Positions 3,772-45,598 of a stretch of DNA of 45,598 nt are shown in pieces (position 1 is the stretch's first letter; the number at the start of each line of letters is the position of its first letter). The stretch lies in contig JADGRH010000001.1 in assembly GCA_017881075.1 (NCBI GenBank), positions 123,639 through 169,236 of the forward strand, in the 5' to 3' direction. A model generated the notes under the pieces. It searched no databases. It saw nothing but the letters and a program-made list of their open reading frames with translations, and had not been told where the DNA came from. Position numbers and translations under genes: made by a program. The DNA comes from Minisyncoccota bacterium (lineage in GTDB: Bacteria > Patescibacteriota > Minisyncoccia > Phycocordibacterales > CAJBRS01).

Positions 3772-3862
3772 GTACAGATGGCCTTTTGGCTCGCCTTCCT
3801 TCCGGGGAAGGAGAATGGAAAATAGCTAGCCGAAATTAACTCGGCTAGCTATTTTCTTTATC
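3772..3862 (+). ncRNA. Candidate short transcript of ~90 nt between the promoter and a strong terminator; also holds a 15-codon ORF (MAFWLAFLPGKENGK)
   Basis: Downstream of a perfect promoter; contains CCTTCC/GGAAGG hairpin and ends in a 16-bp perfect stem followed by TTT. Confidence 0.45.
3818..3856. terminator. Bidirectional intrinsic terminator between the short + transcript and the PemK-like gene
   Basis: GAAAATAGCTAGCCGA-aattaac-TCGGCTAGCTATTTTC, 16-bp perfect stem with T runs on both strands. Confidence 0.75.
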
Positions 3863-4218
3863 TCGTGGAGTAGATGTGGCTCAATTGAACAAATTTTGTT
3901 AACCAATCTCTTACTATCAATGTTTCTTAATTGAGACAGATTAGCAGTTGCTTCTTTTTCTTCAATAGTTCCAACAGGGATTCGATAGGAGTTTAACTTT
4001 TTTGACGTGCTTAAAGGTAGAGCTAAAAATGAATACATGTTGTATTTATTTAAAATAATCACTGGTCGCATATAAGTTTCGATTCCACCATTCATTTCGA
4101 ATCCTATATTTAACCCCAAATTTATCCACCACACTTCTCCTTCATGGAAAAACAGTCGATCTTCTTTTTGATCAATTGTTTTCTTCATTTCATTCCATCG
4201 ATCAAAATCTTTTTCCAT
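3826..4218 (-). CDS. Type II toxin of the PemK/MazF family
   Basis: HEGEVWWINLGLNIGFEMNGGIETYMRPVIILNKYN ... LPLSTSKK ... ATANLSQLRNIDSKRLVNKI. Confidence 0.8.
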   Translation of the reverse strand: MEKDFDRWNEMKKTIDQKEDRLFFHEGEVWWINLGLNIGFEMNGGIETYMRPVIILNKYNMYSFLALPLSTSKKLNSYRIPVGTIEEKEATANLSQLRNIDSKRLVNKICSIEPHLLHEIKKIASRVNFG

Positions 4219-17900: not shown

Positions 17901-18602
17901 CGAACAGATGGGATAGTGTCGGACATTAAGGAAGGCGACAAAGAAAGATTGCTCATAGTCCTTCCGGAAATTCATGATAAAGCCAAGAAAGGTAAAAAAA
18001 GCGAAGTGGAATATTCTGTTAGCTTTTTACGTACTCTAACCGTCAAAGTAGGAGACAAGGTTCTCAAGGGACAATTCCTAACCGACGGATCGGCCGACAT
18101 TGAAGAACTATTCAAATATGCCGGCAAAGACGAAGCTCAAAATTATGTTATTTCTGAAGTGAAGAAACTTTATGAACTCCAGGGTGAAGCTGTTTCTCGA
18201 AAACATATAGAAGTAATTGTTCGACAGATGTTTGCCCGAGTGAAGATCAAGGATGCCGGCGGCACTGACCTATCCGTTGGTGATGTAGTAGAAAATTTTG
18301 AATTCATTATAAAAAATAAGCAAGCCAAAGCAAAAGGAAAGGATGAAGCAAAGGCAGAATCAATTGTTATGGGTATTGCCGAGGTCTCTCTTTCAAGACG
18401 CAGTTTTCTTTCAGCTGCCTCCTTTCAACATACTACTCGAGTGCTGATCAACGCCGCAATAAGAGGCAGCAAAGATCGCCTCCACGGCCTGATGGAGAAT
18501 GTTATAATCGGCCGATTAATTCCAGCCGGTACAGGCTTTAAAGGCAGTCCAAAATATCAACAGATTGAGGATATGCAGAGGGGTGTAGATAATCAAAATT
18601 GA
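14913..18602 (+). CDS. rpoC: DNA-directed RNA polymerase subunit beta prime
   Basis: [24 protein letters not shown] zinc finger; [30 protein letters not shown]. Confidence 0.98.
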
Positions 18603-40115: not shown

Positions 40116-40565
40116 TTAAGCTTCAACAACTATTTTACCGTGCATTGTTGGATGGATACTGCAATGATAATTTGTAGTACCAGGACTGGTAAAGGTAAAA
40201 GTGAAGGATTGTCCCGGCGAGAGCTGTGAAGAATTAAGGAGATTGCCTGAATCGGAGGTAATGGTATGAGGGACACTGTCATTATTAATCCAGGTCACCT
40301 TTGTTCCTACTTTGATCGTTGTTGATGAAGGACTAAAGGCGAAGTTCTTTATGCCGATAGTGATGTTAGAGGCTACTGGCTGTGCGGGAGCAGCTACGGT
40401 TGTCGTAGAATTGTTCACTATGTTAACCGAGGTGTTTTCAACAGGAGGAGTATTTGTTTGTGAATTGTCCACCGGAGTCTGGTTAGAGTTATTGTTGAAG
40501 AAGATAAAATAACCTCCGACAATAACGATCACCAACACTAATAATATTACGATTGTTTTATTCAT
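40116..40565 (-). CDS. Cupredoxin (plastocyanin/azurin-like), membrane anchored
   Basis: IKNFAFSPSSTTIKVGTKVTWINNDSVPHTIT ... SPGTTNYHCSIHPTMHGKIVVEA (His, Cys, His, Met ligands). Confidence 0.9.
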   Translation of the reverse strand: MNKTIVILLVLVIVIVGGYFIFFNNNSNQTPVDNSQTNTPPVENTSVNIVNNSTTTVAAPAQPVASNITIGIKNFAFSPSSTTIKVGTKVTWINNDSVPHTITSDSGNLLNSSQLSPGQSFTFTFTSPGTTNYHCSIHPTMHGKIVVEA

Positions 40566-40619: not shown

Positions 40620-40648
40620 GCTCCACATGTTGAACGATATTAGAACCT
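40620..40648 (+). repeat. 29-bp cassette-boundary-like motif, copy A
   Basis: GCTCCACATGTTGAACGATATTAGAACCT. Confidence 0.75.
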
Positions 40649-40668
40649 GTTTTTAATATAGTAATCTT

Positions 40669-40920
40669 ATGACCAAAAAAGGAATCGCCACTGGTGTGGT
40701 ACATAGAGTGCCCGCGGATTTACGAAAGACCCTTACTTCTACTCCAGCGGCGCTAGCGGTGTGGGAGAATATTACCCCACTCGCACGCAATGAGTGGATA
40801 TGCTGGATTGAATCCGCCAAGAAATCGGAGACTAGGCGTCATAGGATCGAGAGGACGCGCACAGAACTTATGGACGGAAAACACCGACCTTGCTGTTGGG
40901 CCGGTTGCATTCATCGTTGA
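40669..40920 (+). CDS. Small YdeI/OmpD-associated-like protein
   Basis: NITPLARNEWICWIESAKKSETRRHRIERTRTELMDGKHRPCCWAGCIHR. Confidence 0.6.
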   Translation: MTKKGIATGVVHRVPADLRKTLTSTPAALAVWENITPLARNEWICWIESAKKSETRRHRIERTRTELMDGKHRPCCWAGCIHR

Positions 40921-40952
40921 AATAATTGAAGAGATGTAAAGTTACCTTTTTT

Positions 40953-40981
40953 GCTCCGCATCGTGAACGAGTTCAGAACCC
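40953..40981 (+). repeat. 29-bp motif, copy B
   Basis: GCTCCGCATCGTGAACGAGTTCAGAACCC. Confidence 0.8.
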
Positions 40982-41051
40982 TTAATTGGAGGAATATAGA
41001 ATTTAATCTGAGCATTTTTACTAAATCCTATGATTTTGCTAGACTTCAATA

Positions 41052-42035
41052 ATGGACAAAATGGAATCTTACGAGACCACGAGGTTGCCTTTTGAAGAAC
41101 TATTTGATAGTGGAAAAACCAAGTTATCTAAAGAATCATTTGATGGTGCAAGGGAGACATTTGCTTATGTATCAAAGGAATGTTCAGCAACTGTCCGACA
41201 CGCCTTAGCAATAAACGCTGATTATATAGTTGTTTTAGATAAAGCCGCACGAAATTATGGATACATTTTCCTTAAAACAATTCCTGCAATTTGTGAAGAA
41301 ATTGCAAGAATCAAAGGTGTTCCAATTAAAGATATAAAAGTGCCTGAAGTTAAGTTTCTAAACCCCTCAACTGAAGTAAGTTGGGGTCTTAGTCACGAAT
41401 ATAAATTTTCCCCTAAGGAAGAAGACGAAGAGATGATGAAAAAAATGTTTAACGATAAAACAGTATTGGTTTTTGACGAATCCTCGGATTCTAATTTTAG
41501 AAATTATAATAATGTTCACGAATTAAAACCTAGTGAACAATATGATTTTTGGGATAACGATACTAGCAATGAGCAGTTTGCGGGAGAATTAAAATCTCCA
41601 ATTGGTGAAAGATTATTAGACGACAGAAGTTATTTTCACAAAAAAAGAAAACAGTGGTTTGGGGAAGAGGAAATACCTCCTCCAAGAGGTCGTGGGTTTA
41701 TGGCAAAGCCAGATTATAGACCCAAAAGTGTAGCTTTTAGCGAGTGGTTACATAAGAAATATGGCACTAATGCTGATGTGCACATCGGCATTTCGTCTGG
41801 AGGGGGTGGAGTTTTACACGGCTTATTTGATATTTATACGAAGCATAAGGAGGGGGAAAGTGTGGCTCACAGACATAATCCTAAAATAGAAGATTCAAAT
41901 GATTCTGACTTATTTTCAATTCAAAACCCAGAATTTAAGAGAGATGAATTTGATGAATATGTAAAACCCGCTCTAGATGCGATTATAAAAGATATTCAAA
42001 ACAGCTCTAAATCTGGGTATCAAAACAGCCTTTAG
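41052..42035 (+). CDS. Hypothetical protein, possibly phosphoribosyltransferase-like
   Basis: ADYIVVLDKAARNYGYIFLKTIPAI ... DKTVLVFDESSDSNF; fold call is inference only. Confidence 0.45.
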   Translation: MDKMESYETTRLPFEELFDSGKTKLSKESFDGARETFAYVSKECSATVRHALAINADYIVVLDKAARNYGYIFLKTIPAICEEIARIKGVPIKDIKVPEVKFLNPSTEVSWGLSHEYKFSPKEEDEEMMKKMFNDKTVLVFDESSDSNFRNYNNVHELKPSEQYDFWDNDTSNEQFAGELKSPIGERLLDDRSYFHKKRKQWFGEEEIPPPRGRGFMAKPDYRPKSVAFSEWLHKKYGTNADVHIGISSGGGGVLHGLFDIYTKHKEGESVAHRHNPKIEDSNDSDLFSIQNPEFKRDEFDEYVKPALDAIIKDIQNSSKSGYQNSL

Positions 42036-42037
42036 AT

Positions 42038-43012
42038 TTACAGTCTATTTAAAAACACTTCTAAATTGGTTTCAGGCTTAAAAACAAGAGTATTTTCTTC
42101 TTCGGTTGGAACTTCTAATTCTTCTATGGCTTGGTCCAAGTATTCTTGCTTAACATCGTGCCTTTGTTTGGCAGTTAAATTATTAGATTGCCTTTGTTTT
42201 TGAACTTCCAAAGGAGTGTCCAAGAAGACTACTTTTGTATCAGCGTTAGCAGATGTGGCTATTTCTCTTAATTCCTCACGATGTTCAAGGCGAGTATTTA
42301 CATTATCAAAGACGACAGATTTTCCATTTAAGAGGTTTTTTTTGATTTTTTCTATACACATATCTAAAAGCATTCTCCATTGCTCATCACTATCTTCATC
42401 TATATTCAATCTATCCTTATTTTCAAAATACATAGCATCCTGAGAAATTAAGACACTATCCGTTTTCTCAGCAATTTTCTTTGCCAGAAATGACTTACCT
42501 GAAAATCCCACACCGCACATTATGTAGAGGATGGGCATAGACCGATAGGACCGAAAGAAGTCGTATTTAGCCTTCCTATAATCATCCATTGATTTACCCT
42601 CAAAGCTTCTTTTTAAGTGATTTAACTCTTCAACCAATTCTGGATGATTTAGCAATAGGTCTCGTTGGGCAACAAATTTATCGTCTAGCGAACCAATAAC
42701 TGTAAGCTGAGCACCAAAGTCTATTTCTAGACTGCTATCCTTGAAACTAGCAAAGCTGTCGGTCCAGTTTTCTGATTGATTGATTTCATACATCTCTTTT
42801 AAGGCTCCCACGGATGCACTAAAGTCTTCTTTTTGAACACGAATATTTATGTCCAAATCGCCTTTGGTTAGTGAGTTAGGAATTGATGAGCTACCGATAT
42901 GCTCAACCTCCGCGAACGGAAGATTCTCAAGTACTTTACTTTTTTGCTCAACAAAGACCTTATTAGCTAAATATTGAAATTGACTGACAGGTTTGAAGGA
43001 TACAATTTCCAT
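42038..43012 (-). CDS. GrpB/nucleotidyltransferase-like domain fused to a P-loop (AAA_33-type) kinase
   Basis: VEHIGSSSIPNSLTKGDLDINIRV ... MDDYRKAKYDFF then ILYIMCGVGFSGKSFLAKKIAEKTDSVLISQDAMYF ... GKSVVFDNVN. Confidence 0.75.
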   Translation of the reverse strand: MEIVSFKPVSQFQYLANKVFVEQKSKVLENLPFAEVEHIGSSSIPNSLTKGDLDINIRVQKEDFSASVGALKEMYEINQSENWTDSFASFKDSSLEIDFGAQLTVIGSLDDKFVAQRDLLLNHPELVEELNHLKRSFEGKSMDDYRKAKYDFFRSYRSMPILYIMCGVGFSGKSFLAKKIAEKTDSVLISQDAMYFENKDRLNIDEDSDEQWRMLLDMCIEKIKKNLLNGKSVVFDNVNTRLEHREELREIATSANADTKVVFLDTPLEVQKQRQSNNLTAKQRHDVKQEYLDQAIEELEVPTEEENTLVFKPETNLEVFLNRL

Positions 43013-43036
43013 ATGATTGGAAGTATATCAAAATCT

Positions 43037-43065
43037 GCTCCCTTGGTTGGATAGGTTCAGAACCC
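43037..43065 (+). repeat. 29-bp motif, copy C
   Basis: GCTCCCTTGGTTGGATAGGTTCAGAACCC. Confidence 0.8.
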
Positions 43066-43114
43066 TGGATTGGGGGAAGATAAAGAGGGAAGTGGAGGGT
43101 TTGGTTTTATATAA

Positions 43115-43140
43115 AAAACACATCATTGCTGATGTGTTTT
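43115..43140 (-). terminator. Intrinsic terminator of the GNAT gene
   Basis: AAAACACATCA-ttgc-TGATGTGTTTT; minus strand continues TTATATAAAA. Confidence 0.7.
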
Positions 43141-43154
43141 GAAATTTGTATGGA

Positions 43155-43706
43155 CTATTTATTTCGCTCCCATTCACTCACAAGAATACTGTATGCCACT
43201 GCGTCAATGAAATGATCATAAAGCCATTCGTTCTGGCGACAGACACCCTCATTTGTGAAGCCAAGCCGTTCAGGAATTGCAACACTTTTAGTATTCTCAA
43301 CAGCACACAGAATCTCAATGCGATTTAAATTCATTTTTTCGAATCCGTATTTGATGAGTGCTTTAACCGAATCGGTCACAATACCCTTGCCTTGAAAATC
43401 TTCTGCGAGCCAGTATCCGATTGTATCCTTTCTATTGATCTTATCCCAATAGTGGAAACCAATTGAACCAACCCATTGATTGTCATACCAAATTCCAAAA
43501 TCCACACTTTCTTGTTTTTCAAAATTTGAAATACACGATTGAATATATTTTAGCGTATCACCAACTGTCTTCGTGGCATCAACCCACGGCAGCCATTGTC
43601 GAAGATAGGTACGATTTTTATCAATGAGGCTGAAGAACACGTTAGCGTCTGCCTCTTCTCTGAGTCGTAGCTCTAAATTTTCTCTTCCAGGAATTACAAA
43701 GTTCAT
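43155..43706 (-). CDS. GNAT acetyltransferase (RimJ/RimL-like)
   Basis: LELRLREEADANVFFSLIDKNRTYLRQWLPWV ... TIGYWLAEDFQGKGIVTDSVKALIKYGFEKMNLNRIEILC. Confidence 0.9.
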   Translation of the reverse strand: MNFVIPGRENLELRLREEADANVFFSLIDKNRTYLRQWLPWVDATKTVGDTLKYIQSCISNFEKQESVDFGIWYDNQWVGSIGFHYWDKINRKDTIGYWLAEDFQGKGIVTDSVKALIKYGFEKMNLNRIEILCAVENTKSVAIPERLGFTNEGVCRQNEWLYDHFIDAVAYSILVSEWERNK

Positions 43707-43745
43707 ACAATAAATAATACATTATATATGGAGTATTGTCAATTT

Positions 43746-43774
43746 GCTCCCCTGGTTGGCTACGTTCAGAACTC
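43746..43774 (+). repeat. 29-bp motif, copy D
   Basis: GCTCCCCTGGTTGGCTACGTTCAGAACTC; C and D also share similarity downstream to about TTTTATATAAA. Confidence 0.8.
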
Positions 43775-43893
43775 TTGATTGGAGACAGATTGAGAGGGAA
43801 TTGAGTAGTTTGAGTTTTATATAAACGAAACCCCCGCACCAACTTTCGTCGGATTGGGGGCTCATGACAGAGATCTTCTAGATCTGTGTCAGA

Positions 43894-44190
43894 TTAGTAA
43901 TCGTCTTCCTCATCGTCTGCATGACAAGCTGCCCAGTCAACTTTTTCTAGCTCCCTTCGAAGCTCGCGTTGTTCTCGGTCAGACATTTCACCAGAGATAA
44001 TGCTTGCGCTATTGAAATCTCCTTCCTCGGGGCAACACCCATTGGTTAAAGAGTCTAGTGCGCATGCGTAGCAGGAGTCGCGAGACGAATCTCGGTCACT
44101 CCTCTCCGCTCCGTCAATGTTTTTATGATACGTTTTACCGCAGTCCTTACATTCAGTCTTAATGATCATGTATGTCCTATTGTTGTCCAC
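43894..44190 (-). CDS. Cys-rich hypothetical protein (zinc-ribbon-like)
   Basis: CKDCGKTYHKN ... CYACALDSLTNGCCPE; GTG start at 44190 or internal ATG. Confidence 0.55.
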   Translation of the reverse strand: MDNNRTYMIIKTECKDCGKTYHKNIDGAERSDRDSSRDSCYACALDSLTNGCCPEEGDFNSASIISGEMSDREQRELRRELEKVDWAACHADDEEDDY

Positions 44191-44368
44191 GGCAAGCGTG
44201 GGTAATAGACATCATCCCTTCTTACCTTTCGGCGCGGGGGATTGTCGCTCGATCTGCCACTGTACCGCATAGACAGCAGATTGTTACTTCTCAGTCGAAA
44301 CCCTGTGTGAAGTACGCGTAGGTTACCTATCTAATATGTTAGCATTAAAATAAGGATTTGTCAAATTT

Positions 44369-44397
44369 ACTTCGTCTCGTAGAGGATGTTAGAACCT
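44369..44397 (+). repeat. 29-bp motif, copy E (most divergent 5' end)
   Basis: ACTTCGTCTCGTAGAGGATGTTAGAACCT. Confidence 0.7.
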
Positions 44398-44440
44398 ATC
44401 AAACCTGATAATATAACTCTATCATTGAAAAAGTCAGCTA

Positions 44441-45223
44441 TTGTATATGAAATTATCTAGACAAAAAACATCATTCGGGCTTTTGGCAAAGGAGTATCAA
44501 AAATATCGCCGCTCATATGATCCGAAGCTATACAAACTACTTTTTTCTCTACTTCCATCAAAAGATCTAACCGTTCTAGATATTGGTTGTGGAACAGGAA
44601 AATCCACAGAGCCTTTAGTTCTCGAAGGAGGAAGACGCAGGGTTTCCGTCACTGGTCTTGATCCTGATAAAACAATGCTTCAGGAGGCAAGATTATCAGC
44701 AAAAAAGAAAAGATTATCAATAAGGTATGTTTGGGGAACGGCCGAGAGACTTCCTTTCAAGAAAGAAAGATTTGATGCAATCACTTCCGGAGCTGCTTTT
44801 CATTGGTTCGGAAGTAAACGAACAATGGTAAAAATAAAAAATGTTCTAAAGAAAAATGGAGTATTTTTTATCTTTTGGGCTCAATATACAAAGTCAGATA
44901 AACCAGCAATTGGTAGTAATTTATATGAAAAGTATAAGTGGCAAGGAATTCCGAAAAAGTTCAGGGTACAAAAATTTGTCACCAAGCTTTTAATTCAAGC
45001 TGGTTTTAATGGGGTGAAAAAAGCATCAATTCCATTTACCGAAAAGAAGACCATTCCGGAGATTATAGGTAATCTAAAAACCAATTCTTCATACGCCCTG
45101 ATGTCTTCGAAGGTGAAGAAGCAGTTCATAAAAGAAATGACTCGAGCTTATAGAGTTAGTTTAGGCCATAAAAAATATGAGGTTAATAAACTTGAATTAA
45201 GGATTTGCTACGGATCTAAATAG
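44441..45223 (+). CDS. Class I SAM-dependent methyltransferase
   Basis: LTVLDIGCGTGKSTEPLVLEGGRRRVSVTGLDPDKTMLQEA ... GTAERLPFKKERFDAITSGAAFHWF. Confidence 0.92.
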   Translation: MYMKLSRQKTSFGLLAKEYQKYRRSYDPKLYKLLFSLLPSKDLTVLDIGCGTGKSTEPLVLEGGRRRVSVTGLDPDKTMLQEARLSAKKKRLSIRYVWGTAERLPFKKERFDAITSGAAFHWFGSKRTMVKIKNVLKKNGVFFIFWAQYTKSDKPAIGSNLYEKYKWQGIPKKFRVQKFVTKLLIQAGFNGVKKASIPFTEKKTIPEIIGNLKTNSSYALMSSKVKKQFIKEMTRAYRVSLGHKKYEVNKLELRICYGSK

Positions 45224-45252
45224 GCTCCGTCTAGTGGAGGATGTTAGAACCT
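45224..45252 (+). repeat. 29-bp motif, copy F (starts directly after the methyltransferase stop)
   Basis: GCTCCGTCTAGTGGAGGATGTTAGAACCT. Confidence 0.8.
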
Positions 45253-45345
45253 GGGTGAGGTAGGTGCTCGAGTCCTTAACCGCCAGCACTTCTTCGCCTT
45301 CGAATTGCCGTACGAAGGCTCATCAGTGTCAAGACGGTTTTTGAG

Positions 45346-45391
45346 AAAAAATAAAAAAGACCCTGAGTGGAATCGAACCACACAGAGCCTT
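45346..45391 (-). terminator. Intrinsic terminator of the minus-strand ORF at the window end
   Basis: Minus strand AAGGCTCTGTGTGG-TTCGATT-CCACTCAGGGTCTT (one mismatch, two G-T pairs) then TTTTATTTTTT. Confidence 0.65.
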
Positions 45392-45396
45392 TGGAT

Positions 45397-45598
45397 TTAC
45401 TTAACTATCAAGATTTTCTCAGCACCTTTTGGAAGTTGGCCCGGTTCCAGTTTGTCCTTGCGAACAATGGTTGGCCTTATCCATTCAGTCTTTGGGTGAG
45501 TAAGCTCGGTGTTTTTGGGTCTGCGCCAGTATCCTTGACGGAAGTGGCAACATTTTTCCTTGAACGATCTCGTCGGCATTCCTTCGGGATCGCTAAAC
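45397..45598 (-). CDS. C-terminus of a hypothetical protein (open at window end)
   Basis: Frame is open past the listed ATG at 45579: FSDPEGMPTRSFKEKCCHFRQGYWRRPKNTELTHPKTEWIRPTIVRKDKLEPGQLPKGAEKILIVK, then terminator. Confidence 0.65.
   Translation of the reverse strand, partial: FSDPEGMPTRSFKEKCCHFRQGYWRRPKNTELTHPKTEWIRPTIVRKDKLEPGQLPKGAEKILIVK

Follow-up and report, generated by a model that had tools for sequence, protein, structure and literature searches.

Which process leaves one short sequence, always in the same orientation, between unrelated genes that run in both directions? The question is raised by the last 5 kb of the window, as we call the whole stretch of DNA analysed here: 45,598 nucleotides, positions 123639-169236 of a 169236-nucleotide contig (JADGRH010000001.1, here C6) from the Minisyncoccota bacterium assembly GCA_017881075.1 (here G000). 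Six copies of a 28-bp motif divide this part of the window, which runs to the end of the contig. We hypothesize, with a probability of roughly 0.85, that the motif serves as the only recombination site of mobile, single-gene cassettes that accumulate in tandem at the 3' ends of tRNA genes.

The repeated site

The six copies, A (40620..40647), B (40953..40980), C (43037..43064), D (43746..43773), E (44369..44396) and F (45224..45251), all lie on the plus strand and align without gaps, exactly as a first-pass annotation of this DNA had placed them. That annotation had described a 29-bp motif with an N15 spacer; its length and spacing give way to GCTCC-N14-NTT[A/C]AGAAC over 28 bp. We scored the window with a profile trained on 144 sites from other genomes only, using 100 dinucleotide shuffles of the window as the control. 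Sites F (GCTCCGTCTAGTGGAGGATGTTAGAACC), E (ACTTCGTCTCGTAGAGGATGTTAGAACC), A (GCTCCACATGTTGAACGATATTAGAACC) and B (left half of the GCTCCGCAT type, right half of the GTTCAGAAC type) score 41.0, 34.2, 29.0 and 27.3, respectively, against a shuffle maximum of 16.8, and F is also matched by the whole-genome model R1 (E 5e-8). With the same profile C scores 9.6 and D 4.1, below significance. These two form a subtype (GCTCCCYTGGTTGGNTACGTTCAGAACTCTNGATTGG... or GCTCCCTTGGTTGG...GTTCAGAAC) in which the right half GTTCAGAAC is followed by a conserved tail, GATTGG.... Close matches to the subtype occur on another contig of the same genome, C4 (L019:5655 and L019:12625), and the subtype is also found in other families (L141:7270, L141:11375, L191:6077 and L196:6578). 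The similarity between C and D had been seen to reach beyond the core, and it does: an extended left end (GGATTGGGGGAAGATAAAGAGGGAAGTGGAGGG...TTTTATATAAA; 43065..43120, plus strand) follows C, the flanks after D and after both C4 sites are alike, and its first 20-30 bp recur in other families. The repeated motif in the window is real. Two further profile matches, at 18482 (16.0) and 26682 (13.2), score like shuffles, and therefore the earlier statement that the first 40 kb hold no copy is sound.

The array had been rightly recognised but drawn too small, as more sites occur on three other contigs. Contig C1 opens with a like array of five sites (L017:1119, 1738, 2558, 3052 and 3181) that terminates at a tRNA-Asn gene (L017:3876-3948, minus strand), and we infer that the end of C6 adjoins the start of C1, with the array continuing across the gap. 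A third array, of six or more sites, lies on C4, and two more sites stand beside a tRNA-Glu gene on C2. All whole-genome model matches listed for G000 fall within these four clusters.

Beyond this genome, a 30-column, sequence-only model built from 35 sites matches 147 of the 387 genomes of the class at a cut-off of E <= 0.05 per genome, where about 19 would be expected by chance. Clustered arrays were recovered in many related genomes, which was the outcome hoped for when a search with a model of the copies was first proposed, and the richest genomes (G682 and G728) carry 15-19 sites. The core is present with <= 3 mismatches in eight of 397 genomes of the order, and the reversed control gave none. 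A scan for the exact pattern in one genome for each of 85,462 species returned seven matches, all of them Patescibacteria-type metagenome-assembled genomes by title or context, one being titled only 'bacterium'. One match, in G026, was discarded as chance since it sits inside a glycosyltransferase gene.

Aligning 161 distinct sites, we observed a sharp onset of conservation at base 1, a conserved core of 28 bp, and weaker conservation that fades after about base 33 (GCTCC[GC][CT]CTAGTGGACGATGTTAGAACCTGTTT). The right end of the cassette, immediately before base 1, is practically unconserved, at about 0.1 bit per base; hence there is one site per cassette. No symmetry axis or palindromy is marked in the 161 sites, no covariation among them rises above permutation, and no hairpin is common to the 56-nt folds computed for both strands of 21 sites. 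The site is therefore asymmetric and double-stranded in character. The GTTRRRY core of attC is absent from the strong sites, which read GTTAGAAC or GTTCAGAAC instead, and a search of Rfam matched only the tRNA. Both the missing core and the folding, which had been suggested as a check, agree with the first reading of these copies as something other than attC. The right half of the site resembles a tRNA T-arm (GGAT..GAACC), a likeness that is suggestive only.

Two variants of this anatomy were seen. Unlike other genomes, G632 and G528 (arrays L160 and L184) have a conserved 60 bp (TCCGAGATTTCTGAAACAGAAACGG...AAAAGTC) at each cassette right end, directly before the tRNA prefix. In Colwellbacteria GWA2_46_10 (L074:3700-7300), sites are paired at a distance of 55 bp and enclose an imperfect inverted repeat, forming a composite of about 83 bp in which only the first member starts with GCTCC; similar pairs are present in G682 and G696.

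Anchoring at tRNA genes

The reading as a cassette array had until now lacked an anchor. Read in the orientation of the motif, the tRNA-Asn gene on C1 starts GCTCCGTGGGTAGGGATCGAACC, the GCTCC of the motif being the 3' end of this gene. Across genomes, the site opens with 4-8 bases that reproduce the 3' end of the tRNA next to the array (Asn, Trp, Gln, Gly or Val). Sites begin GCTCC followed by CCCTAGTGGACGACGTTAGAACC in tRNA-Asn arrays, GCAGGGG followed by CTCGTAGAGGATGTTAGAAC in tRNA-Trp arrays (G728, G436), GTTGCGGG followed by TCGTGGACGATRTTAGAACC in the tRNA-Gln array of G578, and GAGCGGG followed by ATAGTG... in tRNA-Gly arrays (G689, G558). The remainder of the site, NNTNGTGGACGATGTTAGAACC, is common to all tRNA types, and the tRNA-type form can be written GCTCC-N7-GGATTCGAACC. 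Bases 6-8 vary with the type of tRNA in distant genomes and are CCC in tRNA-Asn arrays. Over 25 locus-tRNA pairs, the match between prefix and tRNA has a mean of 4.18 nt, compared with 1.87 (standard deviation 0.25) when the tRNAs are permuted (0/5000).

Orientation is constrained as well. Among tRNA genes within 4 kb of sites, 82 are downstream and on the opposite strand, and the three remaining classes account for 10, 19 and 9; these counts are of site-tRNA pairs, and sites within one array are not independent. The sites face the tRNA with a strong bias. Where the C4 array ends there is no tRNA gene; the sequence there is GCTCCGTGGGTAGGGATAGAAC (L019:13318), with the displaced tRNA-Asn 3' fragment GCTCCGTGGGTAGGGAT. 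Displaced fragments of this kind also mark array ends at the tRNA-Asn and tRNA-Gln loci of G001, so that both signs by which genomic islands are recognised, insertion at a tRNA gene and a displaced piece of tRNA at the opposite end, are present. In G728, one and the same cassette right end abuts two tRNA prefixes, GCAGGGG at L143:9066 and GCTCC at L144:7297.

Several smaller repeats were noticed around these tRNA genes. On C1, two near-identical 65-bp stretches (L017:2360-2425 and 3812-3877) each precede a minus-strand cassette gene, and one of them abuts the 3' end of tRNA-Asn; a relative lies in the Colwellbacteria array (L074 near 2250). In G001, 3' fragments of tRNA-Gln and tRNA-Asn (L037:9457 and L039 near 6968) are each followed by AAADATTTCACATTGTYGGAATATT..., a mini-unit at two tRNA genes. 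The cassette right ends upstream of tRNA-Trp in G436 (L152) hold a tRNA-Trp 3' fragment and then a hairpin, CCCCGCAGCTGCGGGG.

Cassettes, their movement and the enzyme

The 75 intervals between sites have a median length of 753 bp, and most hold one gene, which gives the tandem series of single-gene cassettes used to recognise integrons and clusters of attC sites lacking integrases (CALINs). Open reading frames (ORFs) in the intervals run along the motif in 31 cases and opposite to it in 63, and eight intervals have no ORF >= 60 aa. The cargo is mutually unrelated: YdeI/OmdA, GrpB-kinase, GNAT, methyltransferase, serine hydrolase, NUDIX, peptidases S49/S51, YcaO, amidase, PgpA, epimerase, cupin, hemerythrin and deaminase proteins, together with many unknowns. 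A glutamine amidotransferase-like cassette is common to G682, where it is the last before tRNA-Asn, and G696, a member of another family; the DNA alignment runs from GCTCC to GCTCC, with nothing in common between the left flanks and with similarity on the right lost after GCTCC. To either side of the tRNA-Trp locus the congeners G728 and G701 are collinear; in between, G728 has 3.2 kb with three sites where G701 has 0.9 kb with one diverged site, the two segments having no similarity. At tRNA-Asn, G000 and G001 agree on the tRNA side beyond the gene and have nothing in common on the array side. These pairs are congeneric, with about 75% identical DNA, rather than strains. Serial insertion at one tRNA, a repeated tRNA end and variable content, the hallmarks of additive islands, were thus all found among congeners, and the sites bound differences in gene content as the first-pass annotation had expected of them. 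Its proposal of a cassette-like recombination system other than attC gains support from the clustered arrays, the congener differences, the exact G682/G696 boundaries and the absent hairpin. Movement of the units is shown at the level of comparative anatomy.

A mechanism can be proposed that takes in what we observed, namely the sites, their tRNA anchoring, the identity of prefix and tRNA, the orientation rule, the cassette-sized units, their exact boundaries and the confinement of variation to the arrays. Site-specific recombination between double-stranded DNA would move cassettes in trans, and the tRNA 3' end would be the platform for insertion, the part played by attI in integrons. The 3' end of the anchoring tRNA, in reverse complement, would make up bases 1-5 (up to 8), and the remainder, NNTNGTGGACGAYGTTAGAACC, would be the conserved left end of the cassette. 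Insertion would rebuild the tRNA and leave the same short block at every junction. The intermediate would presumably be circular, the exchange taking place in or next to the tRNA-identical block through an enzyme acting in trans.

Some observations weigh against the hypothesis of mobile cassettes at tRNA genes. The prefix mismatches the nearest tRNA on C2 of G000 (tRNA-Glu), in G030, and at L148 and L159, and no intact tRNA stands at the array end, within the stretch read, on C4 of G000, in Colwellbacteria and in several arrays of G728. In tRNA-Asn arrays the match is often of just five bases, and therefore the tRNA-identical block is not of fixed length. Excision circles were not seen, nor was an occupied/empty pair within one species, and no recombinase is linked to any array. 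As to the last point, a tyrosine recombinase had been expected next to an array, and none was found there. G000 has a single tyrosine recombinase, its only PF00589 gene, which is Xer-like and sits on contig C5, unlinked to the arrays. Most array genomes likewise have one tyrosine recombinase, away from their arrays; among annotated cassettes none is an integrase, and PF00589 matches lie elsewhere in the genomes. IntI is absent from G000, where the integrase_gron model reaches 131 bits against a cut-off of 265.

As happens in Xer-dependent modules, the host's own Xer recombinase might use the motif as a dif-like site. It is the only tyrosine recombinase in G000 and most array genomes; the best NCBIfam matches of the gene in G000 are XerD and XerC, though below their cut-offs, and the ATGTTA of the site presumably resembles the XerD arm of dif. 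We nevertheless consider this unlikely. Xer was found in 351 of 374 genomes of the class, and since it is nearly universal its presence is uninformative. Sites without any Xer match occur in G612 and in G419, a genome of 100% estimated completeness with three sites, two of which are strong. The site is not palindromic, with no XerC/XerD arms around a 6-bp centre, and, as judged from sampled GC skew, the only site of G087 (at 215.7 kb) falls within a replichore, away from the terminus. This position, and the multi-copy arrays, led us to reject chromosomal dif as an identity for the site. A dedicated tyrosine recombinase supplied in trans by a phage, plasmid or other element outside the assemblies, with the arrays as its cassette stores, comes closer, though we would put it somewhat below an even chance. 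According to PMC4383910, tRNA 3' ends are classic targets of tyrosine integrases, which leave displaced tRNA fragments behind like those found here; the lack of a recognised enzyme among the annotated cassettes would also fit. Against such an element, no convincing site accompanies the additional integrases checked in seven genomes (G151, G030, G728, G521, G708, G705 and G001), and four scans of viral contigs gave no convincing site: two returned 0 matches, and the other two gave four, which lack a tRNA-like prefix and are found on cassette-free phage contigs, some apparently in coding sequence. Phage records held nothing matching the array. An apparent site by the second integrase of G001 (L038:7709) was dismissed as chance because it falls within the TnpA frame of an IS200/605-type element. 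That contig (contig 13) has a phage-like region with a divergent tyrosine recombinase, the IS200/605-type element, a DNA methylase and an IMP dehydrogenase/GMP reductase-like gene, the translations having been judged by eye.

Other explanations carry less weight. If a transposase targeted tRNA 3' ends, the tRNA-derived prefix would be a target-site duplication, which would suit the sharp boundary at base 1, the block repeated at each junction, and the right end that abuts two prefixes in G728. A transposase needs two ends, whereas the right end here carries no conserved terminal sequence; with a match length of 4 to 8, and bases 6-8 that differ by tRNA type in distant genomes, we find this improbable. 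Intervals that hold mostly single genes of mixed function with no integrase nearby would also describe an ordinary integron remnant, a CALIN with degenerate attC sites. That reading, to which we give almost no weight, is already contradicted by GTTAGAAC in place of GTTRRRY and by the absence of a fold, covariation, IntI or Rfam match. We give equally little credence to a regulatory or processing element (promoter, terminator or tRNA-like processing signal): the T-arm-like right half and the position of some sites 25-40 bp from start codons would favour it, whereas genes point both ways around sites of constant orientation (31 same, 63 opposite), cassette boundaries are exact in two families, and ORF-free units also occur between sites.

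Among known systems, these arrays come closest to integron cassette arrays and to additive islands at tRNA genes. With integrons and CALINs they share tandem, mostly single-gene, unrelated cassettes with one site each, a recombinase outside the cassette and a platform at the end. Unlike those, they have a sequence-conserved, double-stranded site of 28-33 bp, a tRNA-gene anchor instead of intI-attI, and genes in both orientations; because there is no hairpin, no GTTRRRY and no IntI in the genome, they are not integrons. The nearest description that we found is of Methylopumilus fGI-2, an additive flexible genomic island in which the last 20 nt of tRNA-Lys are repeated, such islands holding 1-63 coding sequences (PMC10872708). 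Additive islands likewise consist of a variable region beside a tRNA gene in which direct repeats of the tRNA end mark successive insertions. The repeat in those islands is described as nothing more than the tRNA end, whereas the sites in our arrays join a short piece of tRNA to a core of 20+ bp that is independent of the tRNA and recurs across many tRNA types and an entire bacterial class, and the units are mostly single genes. As in tRNA-targeted islands and tycheposons, the target is a tRNA 3' end, the tRNA is kept intact and displaced fragments occur; those elements, however, carry a tyrosine recombinase and span kilobases to hundreds of kilobases (4-200 kbp for tycheposons; PMC10872708), whereas the units here have a sub-kilobase median and no recognised integrase. 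Small gene modules with bounding sites of about 28 bp and no recombinase of their own are also a feature of Xer-dif (pdif) systems. The pdif sites are XerC/XerD palindromes that alternate in orientation on plasmids, and the sites described here are asymmetric, of one orientation, chromosomal and tRNA-linked. In the open literature, outside which subscription papers and preprints mostly lie, we found no account of integrons, tRNA islands or Xer/dif arrays of such kind in Patescibacteria.

From these comparisons we lean, by a modest margin over even odds, towards a cassette-capture system of Parcubacteria's own, unrelated to integrons, in which a new site family uses many tRNA platforms, cassettes are exchanged between families, and the enzyme would be a repurposed Xer or a new recombinase; there is a fair chance that it is separate from known kinds altogether. 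Little is known of how Patescibacteria, whose genomes are very small, acquire genes. If the hypothesis is correct, a tRNA-anchored store of single genes would account for part of their gene content and would be a second, independent example of the integron strategy. The site model allows the cassette repertoire of a whole uncultured bacterial class to be listed, and the enzyme, circular cassettes and transfer between lineages are open to direct tests.

Genes of the window

The gene content of the array in the window is as first annotated, apart from the second gene of the convergent pair, for which Pfam gives GrpB and AAA_33. At the left edge lies a cupredoxin-like gene (40116..40565, minus strand; Pfam Cupredoxin_1/Copper-bind) that has no site to its left in the window and is probably not a cassette. 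Cassette 1, between sites A and B, is an 83-aa YdeI/OmdA family gene (40669..40920, plus strand; Pfam OmdA, 2.9e-18). The second cassette holds the convergent pair, a 327-aa gene with no Pfam match (41052..42035, plus strand) and the 324-aa, kinase-like GrpB + AAA_33 gene (42038..43012, minus strand), with site C lying 25 bp upstream of its start. The third is a GNAT acetyltransferase of 183 aa (43155..43706, minus strand; Pfam Acetyltransf_3, 1.2e-26), with a relative in G705 at an equal offset from a site of the same subtype (L196:6578; 40% over 67 aa). The fourth encodes a Cys-rich protein of 98 aa with a GTG start and no Pfam match (43894..44190, minus strand), and the fifth a class I methyltransferase of 260 aa (44441..45223, plus strand; Pfam Methyltransf_11, 3.1e-21), whose stop codon directly abuts site F, as had been remarked. 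The next cassette (45252..45598, plus strand) is broken off by the contig end. ARAGORN called zero tRNA genes in the window; within this last cassette, at 45359-45389 on the plus strand, GACCCTGAGTGGAATCGAACCACACAGAGCC resembles the T-arm and acceptor end of a tRNA in reverse complement.

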